NCBI RefSeq assembly: GCF_001698205.1
Contig: NZ_CP016591.1
Location: forward strand, 2,790,001 to 2,854,000
Direction of reading: 5' to 3'
DNA length: 64,000 bases
DNA from: Tsuneonella dongtanensis
Lineage (GTDB): Bacteria; Pseudomonadota; Alphaproteobacteria; Sphingomonadales; Sphingomonadaceae
The notes under the pieces are model-generated. The model had not been told where the DNA came from. It was given only the letters and a program-made list of their open reading frames with translations, and did no database searches. This document shows, one piece after another, positions 37,294-43,813 of this stretch (the stretch's first letter is position 1; each line of letters begins with the position of its first letter). Both the position numbers and the translations under genes were made by a program.

Positions 37294-38370
37294 ATGAGAC
37301 GCCCTCGGCGCATCGTCCCGCGGATGCTGGCGCCCAGTCGCATCCTGCGCGCCACGCCTGCACAAGCCGGCGGCGGGCGCGAATGGGACGACCTCGTCGA
37401 CTATGCCGAAAAGTCGATCGCCCGCGGTTCCAAGAGCTTCTCGCTCGCAAGCCGGCTGTTCGACCGCGACACGCGCGAAAAGGTCTGGCTGCTCTACGCC
37501 TGGTGCCGCCGCTGCGACGACCTGGCCGACAACCAGGACCACGGCGGCACGCTGGGCGAGCAGGAGGGCGCCGAACGCCGCCTGACCGCGATCCGCCTGC
37601 TCACCGAGCGTGCGCTCGACGGGCTGCCGACCGCCGACCCGGCGTTCGACGCTTTCGGCCTGGTCGCGCGCGAATGCGGCCTCACCCGCGAGATGGCCGA
37701 GGACGTCATCATGGGCTTCGAGCTCGACGCCAAGGACTGGCGCCCGCGCAGCGAGGCGGATCTCGCGCGCTACTGCTACCACGTCGCGGGCGCCGTCGGG
37801 GTGATGATGGCCGTCGTCATGGGCGTCGACCGCACCGACAGCTGGATGCTCGACCGCGCGTGCGACCTCGGCCTCGCCTTCCAGCTCGCCAACATCGCCC
37901 GCGACGTGGCCGAGGACGACAAGGCCGACCGCCGCTACCTGCCGCTCGAATGGATGGTCGAGGAGGACATCGAGCCCGGCATGATCATGCACCCGCACCA
38001 CCGGCAGGAGCTCGCCGACATCGTCGCGCGGCTGATCCGGCGGATGGAGCGGCACGAGGCGTGGGCGCGGCTGGGCGCGGCACAGCTGCCGTTCCGCAGC
38101 CGCTGGGCTGTGCTCGCCGCCGCGCGCATCTACGGCGCGATCGGGCGGCGGGTGGCGGAACTCGGGCCCCATGCGTGGGACAACCGCGTGGTCATCGGCC
38201 GGACGGAGAAGCTGCGCCACGTGTCCGCGGCGTTCTGGGAAGCGGTGCGGAACAAGCCGGAGGAGCCCGGCGAGGCCCCGCAGTGGTCGCGCGGGCAGAT
38301 CCTGATCGACGTGCGGATGAGCCAGCCGATCCCCGCGCCGAACATGGAGCCGCTGCCGGATGGCGACTGA
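37294..38370 (+). CDS. crtB: Phytoene synthase
   Basis: CrtB condenses two geranylgeranyl diphosphates to phytoene. The 358-residue protein has the two Asp-rich metal motifs of trans-isoprenyl diphosphate synthases, CRRCDDLAD near residue 75 and NIARDVAEDD near residue 210, plus ARGSKSFSLASRLF at the substrate pocket and RRYLPLEWM. ATG 37294 has GAGG upstream; ATG 37324 is an alternative. The C-terminal 50 residues after the catalytic core (EEPGEAPQWSRGQILIDVRM) are sphingomonad-like. The stop codon is followed on the very next base by a REP-like repeat. Confidence 0.93.
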   Translation: MRRPRRIVPRMLAPSRILRATPAQAGGGREWDDLVDYAEKSIARGSKSFSLASRLFDRDTREKVWLLYAWCRRCDDLADNQDHGGTLGEQEGAERRLTAIRLLTERALDGLPTADPAFDAFGLVARECGLTREMAEDVIMGFELDAKDWRPRSEADLARYCYHVAGAVGVMMAVVMGVDRTDSWMLDRACDLGLAFQLANIARDVAEDDKADRRYLPLEWMVEEDIEPGMIMHPHHRQELADIVARLIRRMERHEAWARLGAAQLPFRSRWAVLAAARIYGAIGRRVAELGPHAWDNRVVIGRTEKLRHVSAAFWEAVRNKPEEPGEAPQWSRGQILIDVRMSQPIPAPNMEPLPDGD

Positions 38371-38842
38371 TCCTCCCCGGCACGGGGAGGGGGACCGTGC
38401 GCAGCACGGTGGAGGGGGCCCGCCCGACGTGCTGGCCCAACCGATTAAGCAGGTGAAGCGAGCACGAAGGCTGCGCTCCGAGATGTCCCTTCCCGAAGTA
38501 TTGCTGTGGCAGGAACTCAGGAAGAGGCCCGGCGGCTTCAAGTTCCGTCGCCAATTCCCGCAAGCACCTTATACCCTGGACTTCGCCTGCCTCGCGTCTC
38601 GGACGGCCATCGAAATCGATGGAAGCTCCCATGATCGCGGCGATGCGCCACGGCGCGACTTGCAACGTGACCGGTTTCTCATGCAACGAGGCTTCCGCGT
38701 ATTGCGCATCCCGGCGCGGGAAGTGCTGAGCGATCTGGAGAGTTGCGTGAAAGCTATTGTCGAGGCCTGCCGCGATGCCGGGCCCCCTCCACCATCCGCT
38801 GGCGCGGACGGTCCCCCTCCCCGTGCCGGGGAGGAATTATGA
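38360..38842 (+). CDS. DUF559 nuclease-fold protein with REP-encoded tails
   Basis: The 160-residue reading frame has a DUF559 core at about residues 30-135: RARRLRSEMSLPEVLLWQELR, FKFRRQFPQAPYTLDFACL, AIEIDGSSHD and RDRFLMQRGFRVLRIPAREV. DUF559 is related to the Vsr/PD-(D/E)XK nuclease fold; the D-F-A-C and E-I-D-G residues are the likely catalytic set. The first 20 or so residues (DPPRHGEGDRAQHGGGGP) and the last 20 (GPPPPSAGADGPPPRAGEEL) are translations of the two flanking REP units. A GTG at 38452 would start the domain without the REP-coded part. The stop overlaps the ATG of the carboxylase gene (ATGA). The role is unknown. Confidence 0.75.
   Translation: MATDPPRHGEGDRAQHGGGGPPDVLAQPIKQVKRARRLRSEMSLPEVLLWQELRKRPGGFKFRRQFPQAPYTLDFACLASRTAIEIDGSSHDRGDAPRRDLQRDRFLMQRGFRVLRIPAREVLSDLESCVKAIVEACRDAGPPPPSAGADGPPPRAGEEL
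38371..38420 (+). repeat. REP-like palindromic unit A1
   Basis: The 50-base unit begins TCCTCCCCGGCACGGGGAGG on the base after the crtB stop. It forms two hairpins, CTCCCC/GGGGAG and ACCGTGC/GCACGGT, and ends GGTGGAGGGGGCC. It is the left partner of unit A2 in inverted orientation. Confidence 0.9.
38781..38835 (-). repeat. REP-like palindromic unit A2
   Basis: The reverse complement starts with the same 26 bases as A1 and ends with the same 13 (GGTGGAGGGGGCC); only the second hairpin loop differs. Its GGGGAGGA end lies three bases before the ATG at 38839 and serves as that gene's Shine-Dalgarno. It also encodes the C-terminus of the DUF559 reading frame. Confidence 0.9.
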
Positions 38843-40704
38843 TCACCAAGCTCTTGATCGCCAACCGCGGCGAGATCGCCTGCCGCATCATGCGCACTGC
38901 GCGCGCGATGGGGATCGCGACGGTCGCGGTCTATTCGGATGCCGATGCGAAGGCGCTGCACGTGCGCAGCGCCGACGAGGCGGTGCACATCGGCCCCTCG
39001 CCCGCGGCGGAAAGCTATCTCGTCGGGGAGAAGATCATTGCCGCGGCGAAAGAGACCGGGGCGGACGCCATCCATCCGGGCTACGGGTTCCTGTCGGAGA
39101 ACGCCGATTTTGCGCGCAGCGTGATCGCGGCGGGGCTGATCTGGGTCGGGCCGAAACCGACAAGCATCGAGGCGATGGGCCTCAAAGACGCGGCCAAGAA
39201 GCTGATGCGCGCCGCCGGCGTGCCGGTGACCCCGGGGTACGAGGGCGAGGACCAGTCGCCCGAGCGCCTCAAGGCCGAGGCCGACGCGATCGGCTACCCC
39301 GTCCTGATCAAGGCGGTCGCGGGCGGCGGCGGCAAGGGAATGCGCAAGGTCGACGCGCCCGAAAACTTCGAAGCCGCGCTGCAATCGTGCCGCCGCGAGG
39401 CCGCGGCGAGCTTCGGCAACGACGAGGTGCTGCTCGAAAAGTGGATCACCTCGCCCCGCCATATCGAGGTGCAGGTCTTCGGCGACAGCCACGGCAACGT
39501 CGTCCACCTGTTCGAACGCGACTGCTCATTGCAGCGCCGCCACCAGAAGGTGATCGAGGAAGCCCCCGCCCCCGGCATGGACGAGGCGACCCGCGAAGCG
39601 ATCTGCGCCGCCGCCGTCCGCGCCGCCAAGGCGGTCGACTACGAGGGCGCCGGCACGATCGAATTCATCGCCGACGCCAGCGAGGGCCTGCGCGCCGACC
39701 GCATCTTCTTCATGGAGATGAATACCCGCCTCCAGGTCGAACACCCGGTGACCGAGGAGATCACCGGGGTGGATCTGGTGGAATGGCAGCTCAGGGTCGC
39801 GAGCGGCGAGCCGGTGCCGCTCAAGCAGGAGGAGCTGCGTATCGACGGCTGGGCGATGGAAGCGCGGCTTTATGCCGAGGACCCGGCGAAGGGATTTTTG
39901 CCGAGCACGGGGCCATTGGAGATTTTCGATCTGGGCGACGAAGGCCGCATCGAAACCGGAGTGGAACAGGGCGGCGAAGTGTCGCCATTCTACGATCCCA
40001 TGATCGCGAAGCTGATTGGCACGGGAGAGACCCGCCAAGATGCCATCCGGGCACTCGCCGATATGTTCGACGAAATGGCGATCTGGCCCGTGAAGACCAA
40101 CGCCACATTCCTGTTCAACCTGATTCTCAGCCACGATTTCTTTGAGGGCGACGCTATCGACACCGGCTACATCGAGCGCCACCTCGATAGAGTCATACCG
40201 CACCCCAACCCTTTTCCACACGCTTGGGACGAGGCCGCACGCGCCATCTTGAACGAAGCGAAGGAAGAGTTCGGTTCGCTTACAGGGTTCCGCCTCAATC
40301 GAGAGCCTCGGTTGTCCGTTGCGATGCGTCATGGCGACGATAGTCGCGTCATCGAAATCTCGGACGAAGAAGACCTCGGACTCCCCGTTTACGGAGAAGG
40401 CGACGGCCTCATCGTTTTCGACGAAGGGCAGCCATTTAAGTTTGCGCTCGCAGAACGCGGCACCGGCACCCACTCCGCCCACGACGGCGACATCATCGCC
40501 CCCATGCCGGGCAAGGTCATCGCGGTCGATGTGGCCGAAGGCGATACCGTCACCGCGGGGCAGCGGCTGATGGTGCTCGAGGCGATGAAGATGGAGCACG
40601 CCCTCACCGCGCCGTTCGACGGGACGGTGGCCGAGCTTTCGGTCGGCGAGGGCAGCCAGGTGCAGGTCGAGGCGCTGCTGGCGCGGGTGGAGGCTGCGGA
40701 GTGA
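38839..40704 (+). CDS. Acyl-CoA carboxylase, biotin carboxylase/BCCP subunit
   Basis: The 621-residue alpha subunit carboxylates its own biotin using ATP and bicarbonate, for transfer to an acyl-CoA by the partner encoded downstream. The order is a biotin carboxylase domain (LLIANRGEIACRIMRTARAM, the ATP-grasp loop VAGGGGKGMRKV, EMNTRLQVEHPVTE), a linker domain, and a C-terminal biotinyl domain with EAMKMEH, biotin Lys584. The fused BC-BCCP layout fits propionyl-, methylcrotonyl- or broad acyl-CoA carboxylases, not the separate AccB/AccC of fatty-acid synthesis. Bases from about 40000 to 40450 are slightly AT-richer than the rest. The Shine-Dalgarno comes from REP unit A2, and REP B1 follows the stop directly. 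Confidence 0.9.
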   Translation: MITKLLIANRGEIACRIMRTARAMGIATVAVYSDADAKALHVRSADEAVHIGPSPAAESYLVGEKIIAAAKETGADAIHPGYGFLSENADFARSVIAAGLIWVGPKPTSIEAMGLKDAAKKLMRAAGVPVTPGYEGEDQSPERLKAEADAIGYPVLIKAVAGGGGKGMRKVDAPENFEAALQSCRREAAASFGNDEVLLEKWITSPRHIEVQVFGDSHGNVVHLFERDCSLQRRHQKVIEEAPAPGMDEATREAICAAAVRAAKAVDYEGAGTIEFIADASEGLRADRIFFMEMNTRLQVEHPVTEEITGVDLVEWQLRVASGEPVPLKQEELRIDGWAMEARLYAEDPAKGFLPSTGPLEIFDLGDEGRIETGVEQGGEVSPFYDPMIAKLIGTGETRQDAIRALADMFDEMAIWPVKTNATFLFNLILSHDFFEGDAIDTGYIERHLDRVIPHPNPFPHAWDEAARAILNEAKEEFGSLTGFRLNREPRLSVAMRHGDDSRVIEISDEEDLGLPVYGEGDGLIVFDEGQPFKFALAERGTGTHSAHDGDIIAPMPGKVIAVDVAEGDTVTAGQRLMVLEAMKMEHALTAPFDGTVAELSVGEGSQVQVEALLARVEAAE

Positions 40705-40759
40705 TCCTCCCCGGAACGGGGAGGGGGACCGCGACGCGAAGCGGCGGGGTGGAGGGGCC
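40705..40759 (+). repeat. REP-like palindromic unit B1
   Basis: The unit starts TCCTCCCCGGAACGGGGAGG on the base after the stop of the biotin carboxylase gene and ends GGTGGAGGGGCC. The second hairpin is a variant with CGACGCGAAGCGGCG. It is inverted with respect to B2, 31 bases away. Confidence 0.88.
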
Positions 40760-40790
40760 CCCTCCGCTGGCGGAACGCCATTGGCGCGTA

Positions 40791-40837
40791 CCCCTCCACC
40801 ACACTTCGTGTGGTCCCCCTCCCCGTGCCGGGGAGGA
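40791..40837 (-). repeat. REP-like palindromic unit B2
   Basis: Inverted partner of B1, with second hairpin ACCACAC/GTGTGGT around TTC. It ends CGGGGAGGA three bases before the ATG of the carboxyltransferase gene and supplies its Shine-Dalgarno, as A2 does for the gene before. Confidence 0.9.
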
Positions 40838-40840
40838 TTC

Positions 40841-42391
40841 ATGACCTGGGCGAAGGAACTCGAGGAACTGCGCCGTCGTGAAGCGCTGGCCGAGGAAATG
40901 GGCGGCGCGGACAAGGTCGCCCGGCAGCACGGACGCGGCAAGATGGACGCGCGCGCGCGGTTGGCGGCGCTGGTCGATCCGGGCAGTTTCCGCGAGATCG
41001 GCAAGATCGCCGGCAAGGGCTCCTACGACGAGAACGGCGAGCTCACCGGCGTCGTCCCCGCCCCCTTCCTGTTCGGCAAGGCGACGATCAACGGGCGGCC
41101 GGTGGTCGCCACCGCGGACGACTTCACCATTCGCGGCGGCGCGGCGGATGCGGGGATCGGGCGCAAGATGGAGCAGGCCGAGAAGATGGCGCACGAGCTG
41201 CGCCTGCCGATCGTCCGCATGATCGACGGCACCGGCGGTGGCGGCTCGGTCAAGACGCTCGAGATGATCGGCGCGACCTACATCCCCGCGGTGCACATGT
41301 GGGGCGAGGTGGTGAAGAACCTCGACACCGTACCGGTGGTCGCGCTCTCGCTCGGCCCGACGGCAGGGCTCGGCGCCGCGCGGATCGCGGCGAGCCACTA
41401 TTCGGTGATGGTGCGGGGCTTGAGCCAGATTTTCGCGGCGGGGCCCGCCGTGGTCGACGCGCTCGGCGAGAGCTGGAAAGGCGGCGCGGCCAGTCACGAA
41501 GAGGCCAAGGAAGCGCTCGGCGGCAGCGAGATCCACACCCGCAACGGCGTGGTCGACGACGAGGTCGCCAGCGAGGCCGAAGCGTTCGCCCGCGCGCGGC
41601 ATTTCCTCTCGTTCATGCCCGAATACGCCGGCCAGCCCGCCCGCCGCATCGAGACCGGAGACCCCGCCGATCGCCGCGAGGAGGCGCTGCTCTCCCTCGT
41701 CCCGCGCGGCGACAAGCAGGTCTATTCGATGCGCCGCGCGATGGACCTGGTGTTCGACAAGGGCACCGTGTTCGAGATCGGCAAGAACTGGGGCCGGGCG
41801 GCTATCACCGCCCTCGCCCGGCTCGACGGGTGGCCGGTGATGGTGCTCGCGAGCGACCCGAGTTTCCTCGGCGGATCGTGGGACGCCAAGACCTCCGAGA
41901 AGGTCGAGCGTTGGGTCAAGCTCGCCGACCTGTTCCGCCTGCCCATCGTCCACCTCGTCGACAACCCCGGCTTCATGATCGGGCGCGAGGCGGAAATGGC
42001 GGGCACGATCCGCTACGGCGTCCAGGCGATGAACGCGATCTACAAGGCGACCGTGCCGCTGGCGAGCATCGTCATGCGCCGCGCCTACGGCATCGCAGGC
42101 AGCGCCATGTCGAACGCCGACACCTACCAATACCGCTACTGCTGGCCCTCGGGCGACTGGGGATCCTTGCCCATCGCAGGCGGGCTGGAGGTCGCCTACA
42201 AGTCCGAGATCGAGGCAGCGGAGGACCCCGCGGCGGAGCTGGAAGCGATCAAGGCCCGCCTCGCCAAGGTCACCAGCCCTTTCCGCAGCGCCGAGCGCTT
42301 CAACGTCGAGGACATCATCGACCCGCGGGACACCCGCCCGCTGCTGTGCGAATTCGCCGGGCTGGCTTGGCGGAGGCTGGGGGCGGAATAA
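40841..42391 (+). CDS. Acyl-CoA carboxylase, carboxyltransferase subunit
   Basis: The 516-residue beta subunit transfers CO2 from carboxybiotin to an acyl-CoA. It is a double crotonase-fold carboxyltransferase of the propionyl-CoA carboxylase beta / methylmalonyl-CoA carboxyltransferase 12S type. Motifs include the N-terminal GKMDARARLAALVDPGSF, the oxyanion glycines MIDGTGGGGSVKT, and the C-terminal NPGFMIGREAEMAGTIRYG. It pairs with the biotin carboxylase subunit upstream. Methylmalonyl-CoA or a related product is likely, but chain-length preference cannot be read. ATG 40841 is set by the REP-derived Shine-Dalgarno; the stop TAA is followed directly by REP C1. Confidence 0.88.
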   Translation: MTWAKELEELRRREALAEEMGGADKVARQHGRGKMDARARLAALVDPGSFREIGKIAGKGSYDENGELTGVVPAPFLFGKATINGRPVVATADDFTIRGGAADAGIGRKMEQAEKMAHELRLPIVRMIDGTGGGGSVKTLEMIGATYIPAVHMWGEVVKNLDTVPVVALSLGPTAGLGAARIAASHYSVMVRGLSQIFAAGPAVVDALGESWKGGAASHEEAKEALGGSEIHTRNGVVDDEVASEAEAFARARHFLSFMPEYAGQPARRIETGDPADRREEALLSLVPRGDKQVYSMRRAMDLVFDKGTVFEIGKNWGRAAITALARLDGWPVMVLASDPSFLGGSWDAKTSEKVERWVKLADLFRLPIVHLVDNPGFMIGREAEMAGTIRYGVQAMNAIYKATVPLASIVMRRAYGIAGSAMSNADTYQYRYCWPSGDWGSLPIAGGLEVAYKSEIEAAEDPAAELEAIKARLAKVTSPFRSAERFNVEDIIDPRDTRPLLCEFAGLAWRRLGAE

Positions 42392-42440
42392 TCCTCCCCC
42401 ATCGGGGGAGGGGGACCATGCGCAGCATGGTGGAGGGGCA
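42392..42440 (+). repeat. REP-like palindromic unit C1
   Basis: Starts TCCTCCCCCATCGGGGGAGG on the base after the TAA of the carboxyltransferase gene; second hairpin ACCATGC/GCATGGT around GCA; ends GGTGGAGGGGCA. Inverted to C2 across 43 bases. Confidence 0.9.
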
Positions 42441-42483
42441 CAGGCCGATGGCGTGACCTCGCAAGGTCCTTCCAATCCGAAGG

Positions 42484-42532
42484 TGCCCCTCCACCACACT
42501 CCGTGTGGTCCCCCTCCCCGTTCCGGGGAGGA
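42484..42532 (-). repeat. REP-like palindromic unit C2
   Basis: Inverted partner of C1. Read on the minus strand it begins TCCTCCCCGGAACGGGGAGG on the base after the TGA of the MFS gene at 42533, with second hairpin ACCACAC/GTGTGGT. The C1-C2 pair therefore fills the whole space between two convergent genes. Confidence 0.9.
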
Positions 42533-43813
42533 TCAATATATCCCGTGCGCGGCGAGGTACTTGCGCGCATCCCTCGGCCGCCGGAACAACACCCCGCGCT
42601 CGCTGAACAGCACGAGGGTGAGCGACAGCAGGCTGCAGGTCAGCAGCGCGAAGGCCATCGGGCGCGCGCTGTCGTCGTAGAGCTGGCCGATAGCGATCCC
42701 CAGGATCGCGCCCATCGACATGCGCACGAAGGCCTGCGCGCTCGACGCCGCGCCCGCGGTCTCGCTGAACGGCTGCATCGCGATCGAGCCGAAGTTCGCG
42801 CCCATGAAGCCCAGCAGGCACAGGTTCGCCGCCATCAGCGGCACGAACAGTTCGAGCGATTCCCCGCGATAGAGCGACGCCCAGACCTGCGCGGCGGAAA
42901 CGACGATGAAGATGACCAGCGCCGAGTGGCTCACCCGGCGCGCGCCGAATTTCTCGACGATGCGCGAGTTGAGGAAGCTCGACACCGCGAGCGTCGAGGC
43001 GGTGGCGCCGAAGATGAACGGGAAGTCGTCGCCCGCGCCGAAATGTTCGCCGACGAGCTGCTGCGAGCTGTTGATGTAGCCGAACATCGCCCCGAACACG
43101 AGGCCGCTGCCGAGCACGTATCCGATCGCCTCGCGCGTGCGGAAGGTCAGCGGCAGGTTCTGCGCCACGCTGCGGAAATCGAGCGGCTGGCGGTCCTCCG
43201 CGGCGAGCGTTTCGGGGAGCCGCGCCCATGTCCATGATGCGACCAGCGCGGCGAGCGCGGCCATGCCGACGAAGACCCACGGCCAGTCGGCGAAGGTCAG
43301 GATCGCCTGGCCGAAAGTCGGCGCCAGCACCGGCACGACCATGAAGACGATGAAGATCGTGCTCATCAGCCGCGCCATCGCGTCGCCTTCGAAGCGGTCG
43401 CGGATGATCGCCGCGGGGATCACGCCGAGTCCCGCCGTGCCGAGCCCCTGGATCACGCGCAGGGCCAGCAATGCGTCGTAGCTCGGCGCGATGGCGCACA
43501 GCAGCGAGGTGACGACGTAGAACCCGAACGCGGCGAAGAGCAGCGGGCGGCGGCCGAACCGGTCGGACAGGCTGCCGGGCACGAGGCATCCGACTCCGCC
43601 CGCGAGCAGGTACACGCCGACGACCAGCTGCCGCCGGTTGGGATCGTCGACGCCGAACGTCGCCGCGATTTCGTCGAGCGCGGGCAGCATGCCGTCGATC
43701 GCCAGCGCGCCGAGGCTCATGATGGCGGCCATGAGCGCAACGAATTCCGCGCGGCCGATCGACCGCTCGCGTCCGTGACTCGCGTGGATTGCCCCATTCA
43801 TGGCCCGCGCCAT
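42533..43813 (-). CDS. MFS multidrug transporter, Bcr/CflA type
   Basis: The 426-residue, 12-span transporter has the DHA1 motifs: SDRFGRRPLLFAAFGFYV between spans 2 and 3, LRVIQGLGTAGLGVIPAAII in span 4-5, and VPVLAPTFGQ, the family motif of Bcr/CflA efflux pumps. Substrates are unknown. The start may be ATG 43813 or 43801; neither has a strong Shine-Dalgarno. It converges on the carboxyltransferase gene with REP units between, and is divergent from the next MFS gene. Confidence 0.85.
   Translation of the reverse strand: MARAMNGAIHASHGRERSIGRAEFVALMAAIMSLGALAIDGMLPALDEIAATFGVDDPNRRQLVVGVYLLAGGVGCLVPGSLSDRFGRRPLLFAAFGFYVVTSLLCAIAPSYDALLALRVIQGLGTAGLGVIPAAIIRDRFEGDAMARLMSTIFIVFMVVPVLAPTFGQAILTFADWPWVFVGMAALAALVASWTWARLPETLAAEDRQPLDFRSVAQNLPLTFRTREAIGYVLGSGLVFGAMFGYINSSQQLVGEHFGAGDDFPFIFGATASTLAVSSFLNSRIVEKFGARRVSHSALVIFIVVSAAQVWASLYRGESLELFVPLMAANLCLLGFMGANFGSIAMQPFSETAGAASSAQAFVRMSMGAILGIAIGQLYDDSARPMAFALLTCSLLSLTLVLFSERGVLFRRPRDARKYLAAHGIY

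Follow-up and report, generated by a model that had tools for sequence, protein, structure and literature searches.

Inverted repeat units framing a DUF559 gene in Tsuneonella dongtanensis as candidate ends of a REPIN-like mobile element

Related repeat systems

Among the closest described counterparts of the repeats analysed here are the BoxC/PIT/TM repeats, familiar from E. coli since the 1990s, with TM repeats reported in more than 260 genomes (PMC4666352). The repeat unit found in the window (the whole stretch of 64,000 nucleotides of Tsuneonella dongtanensis DNA that was analysed) shares with the E. coli form, TMECO, a C-rich arm, a G-rich arm and a G-tail that mirrors the G-arm, and both kinds of repeat occur as singles and as inverted pairs, mainly in intergenic regions (PMC4666352). 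Unlike BoxC/PIT/TM, the unit of the window carries a further hairpin between the G-arm and the tail and is also found within coding frames. Folding into a triplex in vitro is described for TMECO only, and the source of the mobility of BoxC/PIT/TM had not been found; in the account given there, no mobility genes had ever been found near the E. coli motifs (PMC4666352), whereas a DUF559 gene lies inside pairs here.

A second counterpart is the REPIN-RAYT system, where, as outlined in PMC3116915, a pair of inverted palindromes separated by a short spacer is what disperses, a single-domain gene for a dedicated enzyme lies close to the same palindromes and the repeat type matches the enzyme type. 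The locus resembles this system in each of these respects and differs from it in the enzyme, predicted to be Vsr/PD-(D/E)XK-like and not an HUH Y1 transposase, and in the ends, which are of the triplex type, begin with TCCTCCCC and lack the GTAG tag; neither GTAG nor CTAC is present in the three elements of the window (A, B and C, listed below). The CGTC-tagged REPs are likewise short palindromes, for which the summary in PMC3733652 gives no dedicated transposase as found; the ends of the window unit lack the CGTC tag when inspected by eye, and a candidate enzyme is present here. In Caulobacter, CIR repeats of about 110 bp contain a GANTC methylation site (PMC2229807), a motif that occurs nowhere in elements A, B and C. 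The homing endonuclease I-Bth0305I, described as an EDxHD enzyme whose target is nearly 60 bp long (PMC3943268), is comparable in having a related nuclease core and a mobile context. It differs in that no intron was seen here and DUF559 lacks the extended arms for DNA binding that PMC3943268 describes in this family. Finally, Rickettsia palindromic elements (RPE) are similar in their in-frame insertion in protein genes (glyS here) and different in sequence. We know of no gene associated with RPEs.

Repeat units of the window

Analysis of the sequence and its open reading frames confirmed that the six repeat units between positions 38,371 and 42,532 form three inverted pairs with TCCTCC at their outer ends. 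The features are the following:

38371..38417, plus strand: unit A1 (C-arm, loop, G-arm, small hairpin, mirror G-tail), flush with the crtB stop
38784..38835, minus strand: unit A2, inverted partner of A1, outer end 3 bp from the biotin carboxylase ATG
40705..40757, plus strand: unit B1, flush with the biotin carboxylase stop
40791..40837, minus strand: unit B2, outer end 3 bp from the carboxyltransferase ATG
42392..42438, plus strand: unit C1, flush with the carboxyltransferase stop
42486..42532, minus strand: unit C2, flush with the stop of the minus-strand MFS gene
38360..38842, plus strand: DUF559 (PF04480) ORF within pair A, conserved domain at about 38450-38770
38371..38835, no strand: element A, 465 bp, inverted units with DUF559 between them, proposed autonomous form
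40705..40837, no strand: element B, 133 bp, short inverted pair, gene-less, proposed REPIN-like derivative
42392..42532, no strand: element C, 141 bp, short inverted pair, gene-less

As the original prediction had stated, four of the six units start flush: the first base of TCCTCCCC (38371, 40705 and 42392 on the plus strand; 42532 when read on the minus strand) lies directly 3′ of a stop codon, which is TGA in crtB, the biotin carboxylase gene and the minus-strand MFS gene and TAA in the carboxyltransferase gene. The two remaining units, with minus-strand starts at 38835 and 40837, leave 3 bp between their outer end and the next ATG. What the original prediction did not contain is the gene enclosed by pair A, a DUF559 ORF (PF04480, E 4.6e-26, cut-off passed) whose reading frame continues through both arms of the pair. 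The window units are real, far beyond chance: the search of the whole genome (3.0 Mb) returned 11 units against 0 for the reversed pattern, and 10 of the 11 fall in five inverted pairs. They appear to be the ends of one element. Two other identities were considered. An RNA family was rejected, as Rfam gave for 38300-42600 only two matches (E 0.1 and 0.19), far under the gathering cut-off; a defence system was also rejected, as the only PADLOC hit, to DpdF, was weak and partial (E 4e-4, 48 residues).

Placement of the units relative to genes

The flush starts had been taken to mean that the element targets T(G/A)A|T at gene ends or that selection removed other spacer DNA. The first of these readings did not survive the tabulation of copies in other genomes of the family, where distances from stop codons vary, the outcome that the original prediction had set as its refutation: 2 of the 129 units sampled there are flush, compared with 4 of 11 in this genome, and a same-strand stop lies 0-20 bp upstream in 42 of the 129 (the samples of 129 and 140 units come from genomes chosen for many units or first-listed, not at random, with gene ends set by a simple GC-frame rule and units close to the locus edge removed). 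Further, 19 of 140 units lie inside a gene of the same strand and 18 inside a gene of the opposite strand; glyS is one of the genes entered. On these counts, targeting of stop codons is not supported. The base before TCCTCCCC is A in 101 of the 140 units, position −2 is weakly constrained and there is little beyond it. This A belongs to the unit and by itself favours stops ending in A; given a preceding A, TAA or TGA is found in 12 of 101 units and in 120 of 902 cases of nearby background. Together with the 2 flush units in 129, these figures led to the rejection of stop-codon targeting.

Comparison of the orthologous gaps with those of relatives revealed sites empty of the element. At gap B, two of five relatives (G002 and G008) show a 4-bp overlap between the biotin carboxylase stop and the next start, and the gap measures 55-79 bp in G003, G005 and G007. 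At gap C, four of five relatives (G002, G003, G008 and G010) have overlapping convergent stops, and in G007 these are 79 bp apart. Since an insertion that spares two overlapping genes must be flush, the gene overlap in relatives suggests an explanation for much of the flush precision. The second reading, loss of other spacer DNA, fits gap A, where the spacer is 39-41 bp in G003, G005, G008 and G010 (longer in G002 and G007, where it carries other repeats) as against 3 bp besides the element in the window. The interpretation originally offered was partly supported.

Association of DUF559 with inverted repeats

Of fifty inverted pairs collected from genomes chosen non-randomly in the same way (47 from repeat searches and 3 from L117 and L118, two of the named loci), 36 are 103-148 bp long, 4 are 177-210 bp, 9 are 442-486 bp and 1 is 891 bp. 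The inverted doublet, mostly of the short kind, is the common dispersed form, and inverted pairs also hold 10 of the 11 units of this genome. DUF559 is the usual inner gene: it lies inside all nine pairs of 442-486 bp, seven of which came from the repeat search alone, and inside 9 of the 10 pairs longer than 400 bp, the tenth being the 891-bp pair (L203), which holds a 152-aa ORF without a Pfam match over the cut-off. The pairs have inverted ends and come in gene-bearing and gene-less forms; they would match the layout of IS elements and MITEs, with terminal inverted repeats around a mobility gene, if DUF559 is such a gene. Flank matches of at least 7 were found in 2 of the 50 pairs, with medians equal to those of the shuffled control, and target-site duplication was rejected as a general mark; one of the two pairs is the ispE copy, beside a 57-bp duplication. 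Such duplications are likewise not known from IS200/IS605-type elements.

The same association appears when the search starts from the enzyme. An inverted-repeat frame with a score of at least 16 surrounds 53 of 71 named DUF559 loci (the best 80 of at least 562 confirmed matches to a Sphingomonad-type profile, minus 9 with short flanks) and is seen in 5 of 1594 control windows, which leaves 18 of the 71 loci without a frame at this score; at a score of at least 20 the counts are 44 of 71 and 1 of 1594. A smaller set, in which the incomplete loci L066 and L067 are misplaced, gave 21 of 30 loci at a score of at least 16. DUF559 is framed by such repeats in several bacterial phyla, and a pyrimidine-stem hairpin stands on both sides of the gene in 75 of 117 loci, in 64 of them with the same class on each side. 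Within the family, the window-type unit is present in 104 of 218 genomes with DUF559 and in 1 of 31 without it (Fisher p 3e-7), and a second unit type in 136 and 7 of these genomes, respectively (Fisher p 3e-5), the seven genomes without detected DUF559 carrying 1-4 second-type units each. One genome without detected DUF559, G143 (77% complete), has units of both types. DUF559 and unit counts correlate over the 249 family genomes (Spearman rho 0.70, partly built in, since each DUF559 element adds two units and genomes share ancestry), and within genera the trend is up in 11, down in 1 and tied in 2. For genomes with a single DUF559 (n=76), the median count of the two unit types is 0, and in this genome two of the four DUF559 genes lie outside any window-type pair.

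The units beside DUF559 also follow the grammar expected of a triplex. The tail matches the mirror of the G-arm with a mean of 0.80 in 166 units, compared with 0.64 for shuffled tails, and in 154 asymmetric stems the mirror fits better than a direct copy in 90, worse in 16 and equally in 48; in the window unit the mirror reads GGGGAGG ... GGAGGGG. In E. coli, a related hairpin covers the 3′ end of ycjD, a DUF559 gene, and TMECO number 9 lies about 155 bp further on.

The DUF559 protein and its unit types

DUF559 is a widespread family of largely unknown function, a single domain with a core of about 105 aa. Profile comparison identifies it as a probable Vsr/PD-(D/E)XK-like nuclease, its solved relatives being 3hrl (E 5e-39) followed by the mobile-intron protein 3r3p (E 5e-4), which we take to be the catalytic domain of I-Bth0305I. 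Nine residues (R8, E15, W19, D43, E54, D56, G57, H60 and R85) are invariant in 117 DUF559 proteins, which argues that the nuclease has been kept. Unit type and enzyme clade co-cluster: on the tree of the 117 proteins, unit classes require 37 changes against a shuffled mean of 50.1, a value as low being reached in 0 of 200 shuffles (L098, L105, L106, L232 and L241, which have element and not gene coordinates, were left unlabelled in the class tests and the hairpin count, and their units were checked separately). The nine proteins whose loci have the window-type unit group in a single branch (SH-aLRT 91, not starred), and this pattern is absent from every other locus in the set of 117. At L106, just one side matches the strict pattern. 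No clustering is seen for the coarse class CCTCCCC, in which the window type is merged with others (a value as low arises in 198 of 500 shuffles).

Proposed mechanism and alternative explanations

From these associations we infer that the six units probably delimit three copies of a single mobile element, whose repeats DUF559 mobilises in a REPIN-like manner. The full form (A, 465 bp) would consist of two inverted ends around the single DUF559 gene, and the gene-less short forms (B and C) would be moved in trans, as RAYTs are thought to move REPINs. DUF559 may recognise the unit end when this is single-stranded and folded into the C-arm/G-arm hairpin, with the G-tail possibly serving as the third strand of a triplex, and may cut at the outer edge, at or beside A|TCCTCC; the excised or copied segment would then join a break elsewhere. 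As mainly insertions that spare genes survive, the elements would come to occupy tight positions between stop and start.

A repair role is the first alternative: DUF559 would process mismatched DNA or DNA folded into a hairpin or triplex, and the units, multiplied by replication slippage and recombination, would be its regulatory hairpins or substrates. The Caulobacter DUF559 protein VsrA has been assigned a role in mismatch repair and is reported to cause DNA damage in scmA mutants (PMC12907096), and TM motifs are said to increase local variability in E. coli (PMC4666352). We nevertheless regard a repair role as improbable, because it accounts neither for gene-less inverted pairs where relatives have empty sites nor for the match between unit type and enzyme clade.

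It is likewise improbable that another enzyme, a RAYT/Y1 or an IS transposase acting in trans, spreads the repeats with DUF559 as a captured passenger. REPINs are indeed thought to be moved by RAYTs (PMC3116915), and Y1_Tnp (PF01797), the transposase type surveyed here and detected in 36 of 249 family genomes, is weakly correlated with the units (p 0.017 and 0.010), which occur in 22 of the 36 and in 83 of the 213 others (p 0.017). However, the genome of the window gave no match to RAYT-type Y1_Tnp, so that a RAYT was rejected as the mover here, and the 53 unit-rich genomes contain DUF559 in every case and Y1_Tnp in 15. A random passenger would also be expected to vary, whereas DUF559 recurs inside nearly all long pairs and is framed across phyla. 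Very unlikely, finally, is a homing-like spread in which DUF559 would behave like a homing endonuclease of the free-standing kind, cutting the empty allele so that homologous repair copies the element in. The 3r3p match and the duplication beside the ispE copy would fit this, but copies stand at unrelated sites of one genome, so homology is not the sole route, and they have little common sequence outside position −1.

Beyond this locus, we lean, with some reserve, towards DUF559/YcjD proteins being widespread stand-alone mobility nucleases that recognise triplex-forming ends, are carried by autonomous one-gene elements of about 450 bp (core domain about 105 codons long) and give rise to the abundant bacterial BoxC/PIT/TM repeats, a REPIN-like system built independently on the Vsr fold. 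If true, the tie between DUF559 and the repeats would explain both the enzyme family and BoxC/PIT/TM, and the REPIN way of life would have arisen more than once, on unrelated enzymes. The long-standing question of how palindromic repeats spread where RAYTs are absent would then be open to experiment, with a protein that has a core of about 105 residues. Titles and abstract openings of the openly licensed literature searched contained no link between DUF559 and repeats, and earlier publication elsewhere is possible.

A separate observation concerns the genes around the units. The unit ends bear a Shine-Dalgarno-like GGGGAGGA, and in-frame read-through is possible; through both features, the repeat ends may also shape genes.

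Repeat units and their arrangement in the genome

The repeat unit is about 47-53 bp long and reads TCCTCCCC-loop-GGGGAGG-GGGACC-small hairpin-GGTGGAGGGG. A pattern search of the whole T. dongtanensis genome (3.0 Mb, single contig; G000 in a genus set of 11 genomes) returned 11 copies, and the reversed pattern, used as a control on the same genome, returned 0. Ten of the 11 are arranged as five inverted pairs with TCCTCC on the outside, including the three pairs that the original prediction had described in the window:

Window, gaps A (crtB/biotin carboxylase), B (biotin carboxylase/carboxyltransferase) and C (carboxyltransferase/minus-strand MFS gene): inverted pairs A, B and C, three of the five
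G000:C1 2309748-2310228: inverted pair, outside the window
G000:C1 2327762-2327906: inverted pair, outside the window

The genome has four genes for DUF559 (PF04480), a Vsr/PD-(D/E)XK-like nuclease, and two of the five pairs enclose one. The third gene has CCCTCCCG-type units on its upstream side only, and no units were seen in the stretch examined around the fourth (loci L012 and L015); the repeat type seems to differ, or to be absent, between DUF559 subfamilies. The sole unpaired unit (L001, G000:C1:1364653-1364678) lies in frame inside a 434-codon ORF. This ORF and that within an 891-bp pair at locus L203 contain a similar FLxAL...VYRxR...FRxAW stretch, and neither gave an above-cut-off Pfam match.

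Flush stop codons and empty sites

Four of the six window units do begin at the base right after a stop codon. The proposal that the element targets stop codons was, however, not borne out. In a set of 140 distinct units, drawn from this genome and others of the family, the unit was preceded by A 101 times, by T 28 times, by G seven times and by C four times; T was avoided at position -2 and little was conserved further out, which indicates that the true first base of the unit is this A. TAA or TGA was not commoner at A-preceded units (12/101) than in nearby DNA (120/902), and 2 of 129 units from other genomes were flush with a gene stop. Gene ends are nevertheless favoured, a same-strand stop lying 0-20 bp upstream of 42 of these 129 units. 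Another flush case is on a Sphingomonas parapaucimobilis plasmid, where a DUF559 element separating pntAA from pntAB abuts the upstream stop.

Comparison of the orthologous gaps in relatives, the check proposed to define empty sites, uncovered gaps B and C without the element, often as overlapping genes. At gap B, the biotin carboxylase stop overlaps the following start (GAATGACCTGGG) in G002 and G008, and spacers of 56, 55 and 79 bp are present in G003, G005 and G007. The window reads ...GTGA|TCCTCC...GGGGAGGATTC|ATGACC, retaining both stop and start codons, and G010 carries a unit pair at the identical place with identical junctions. At gap C, overlapping convergent stops (carboxyltransferase and MFS) are seen in G002, G003, G008 (at CTAG) and G010 (deeper), with 79 bp separating the two in G007. 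An element entering between overlapping genes must be flush if neither is to be harmed. The alternative that selection removed other spacer DNA agrees with gap A, where the window has lost the spacer of its relatives (39-41 bp in G003, G005, G008 and G010; 119 and 160 bp in G002 and G007, which have other repeats there).

Other repeat-like spacers, e.g. GTCATCCCAGC...GCTGGGAC, occupy the same junctions in G002 and G007 (L029 and L032, gap A; L032, gap B; L270, gap C), so these junctions are prone to repeats. A CTAACC motif about 8-10 bp 5' of the biotin carboxylase start in relatives (L028, L029, L031, L032, L033, L035) is absent from the window. At biotin carboxylase (window 38828-38841) and carboxyltransferase (40830-40843), the ATG follows the outer end GGGGAGGA after 3 bp, as does the GTG of ispE (L290); the element appears to provide the following gene with a Shine-Dalgarno site.

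Repeat ends around DUF559 genes

Fifty inverted pairs were collected, 47 by repeat searches and three in the named DUF559 loci L117 and L118. Their spans were 103-148 bp (n=36), 177-210 bp (n=4), 442-486 bp (n=9) and 891 bp (n=1); DUF559 lies inside all nine pairs of 442-486 bp, and the 891-bp pair has none. Starting from the gene, an inverted repeat scoring at least 16 framed 53 of 71 usable named loci (from the best 80 of 562 confirmed matches), against 5 of 1594 control windows from the same loci. Among the framed loci are members of Proteobacteria, Desulfobacterota, Chloroflexi, Nitrospirae, Melainabacteria and Patescibacteria, and in most of those inspected the C-rich palindrome points outward and the G-rich tail faces the gene. 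Tails such as PNPSPARGEG at the end of DUF559 ORFs (e.g. L062, L077) resemble translated repeat arms, so annotated protein starts and ends may be unreliable.

Unit sequence varies by lineage and tracks the enzyme. In a tree of 117 proteins, the nine window-type elements form a single branch (SH-aLRT 91), and the window-type unit matched at none of the other loci. The ATCTCCCCC type, mainly Mesorhizobium (6 rows), and the CCCCCCTTT type (8/9 rows) lie in starred branches. Counter to this pattern, no clustering on the tree was seen for the coarse class CCTCCCC, in which the window type is combined with others (198 of 500 shuffles as low).

Across 249 family genomes, the window-type unit was found in 104 of 218 with DUF559 versus 1 of 31 without, and a second type, CCCTCTCCC-GGGAGAGGG, in 136 of 218 versus 7 of 31. 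DUF559 and unit copy number correlated with a rho of 0.70. All 53 genomes with at least 20 units have DUF559, whereas 15 have a Y1 transposase. Within genera, unit counts with DUF559 were higher in 11, lower in one and tied in two. These associations owe something to simple arithmetic, each DUF559 element bringing two units, and something to common ancestry.

A candidate mover and its relation to known systems

The favoured reading is that DUF559 moves the repeats and that the short gene-less pairs would be non-autonomous derivatives of its element. What lies behind the flush units would then be a nuclease-repeat system that resembles REPIN-RAYT in its working mode but falls outside REPIN-RAYT membership. 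The closest solved relative of DUF559 is 3hrl, an Endonuclease-Like Protein (E 5e-39), followed by the mobile-intron protein 3r3p (E 5e-4). E15, D43, E54, D56, G57 and H60 are invariant in 117 proteins. YcjD is listed among PD-(D/E)XK proteins, and its profile finds Vsr (PMC1189080). Caulobacter VsrA, which has a DUF559 domain, is described as required for the SOS response of scmA mutants (PMC12907096), which fits DNA cutting in vivo.

The units flanking DUF559 share the grammar of the BoxC/PIT/TM intrastrand-triplex motifs, a G-arm mirrored by the tail (PMC4666352). In E. coli MG1655, a CCCTCTCCC-AGCGAGGGGG hairpin spans the 3' end of the DUF559 gene ycjD and is followed some 155 bp later by TM motif number 9 of Holder et al.; the 67 bp upstream of ycjD contain no motif of this kind. 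According to these authors, mobility genes were never found around the E. coli motifs (PMC4666352); the lack of a transposase annotation may explain why DUF559 escaped notice.

At ispE (L002/L013, G000:C1:2309748-2310290), a DUF559 element sits at the gene start with 57 bp of the ispE 5' end directly duplicated, one copy on either side; each of the 10 relatives searched has a single copy. Either a staggered cut with a long offset or an independent duplication could explain this one case. In glyS (glycyl-tRNA synthetase beta; L276-L289, genus g1), the pair at G000:C1:2327762-2327906 lies in frame in a linker after VERVAKLARWLVEEGI. At the same point G001, G005 and G008 have no insert, and G003, G006, G007 and G009 carry inserts that look like other palindromic-repeat families; the linker looks like a landing pad for repeats.
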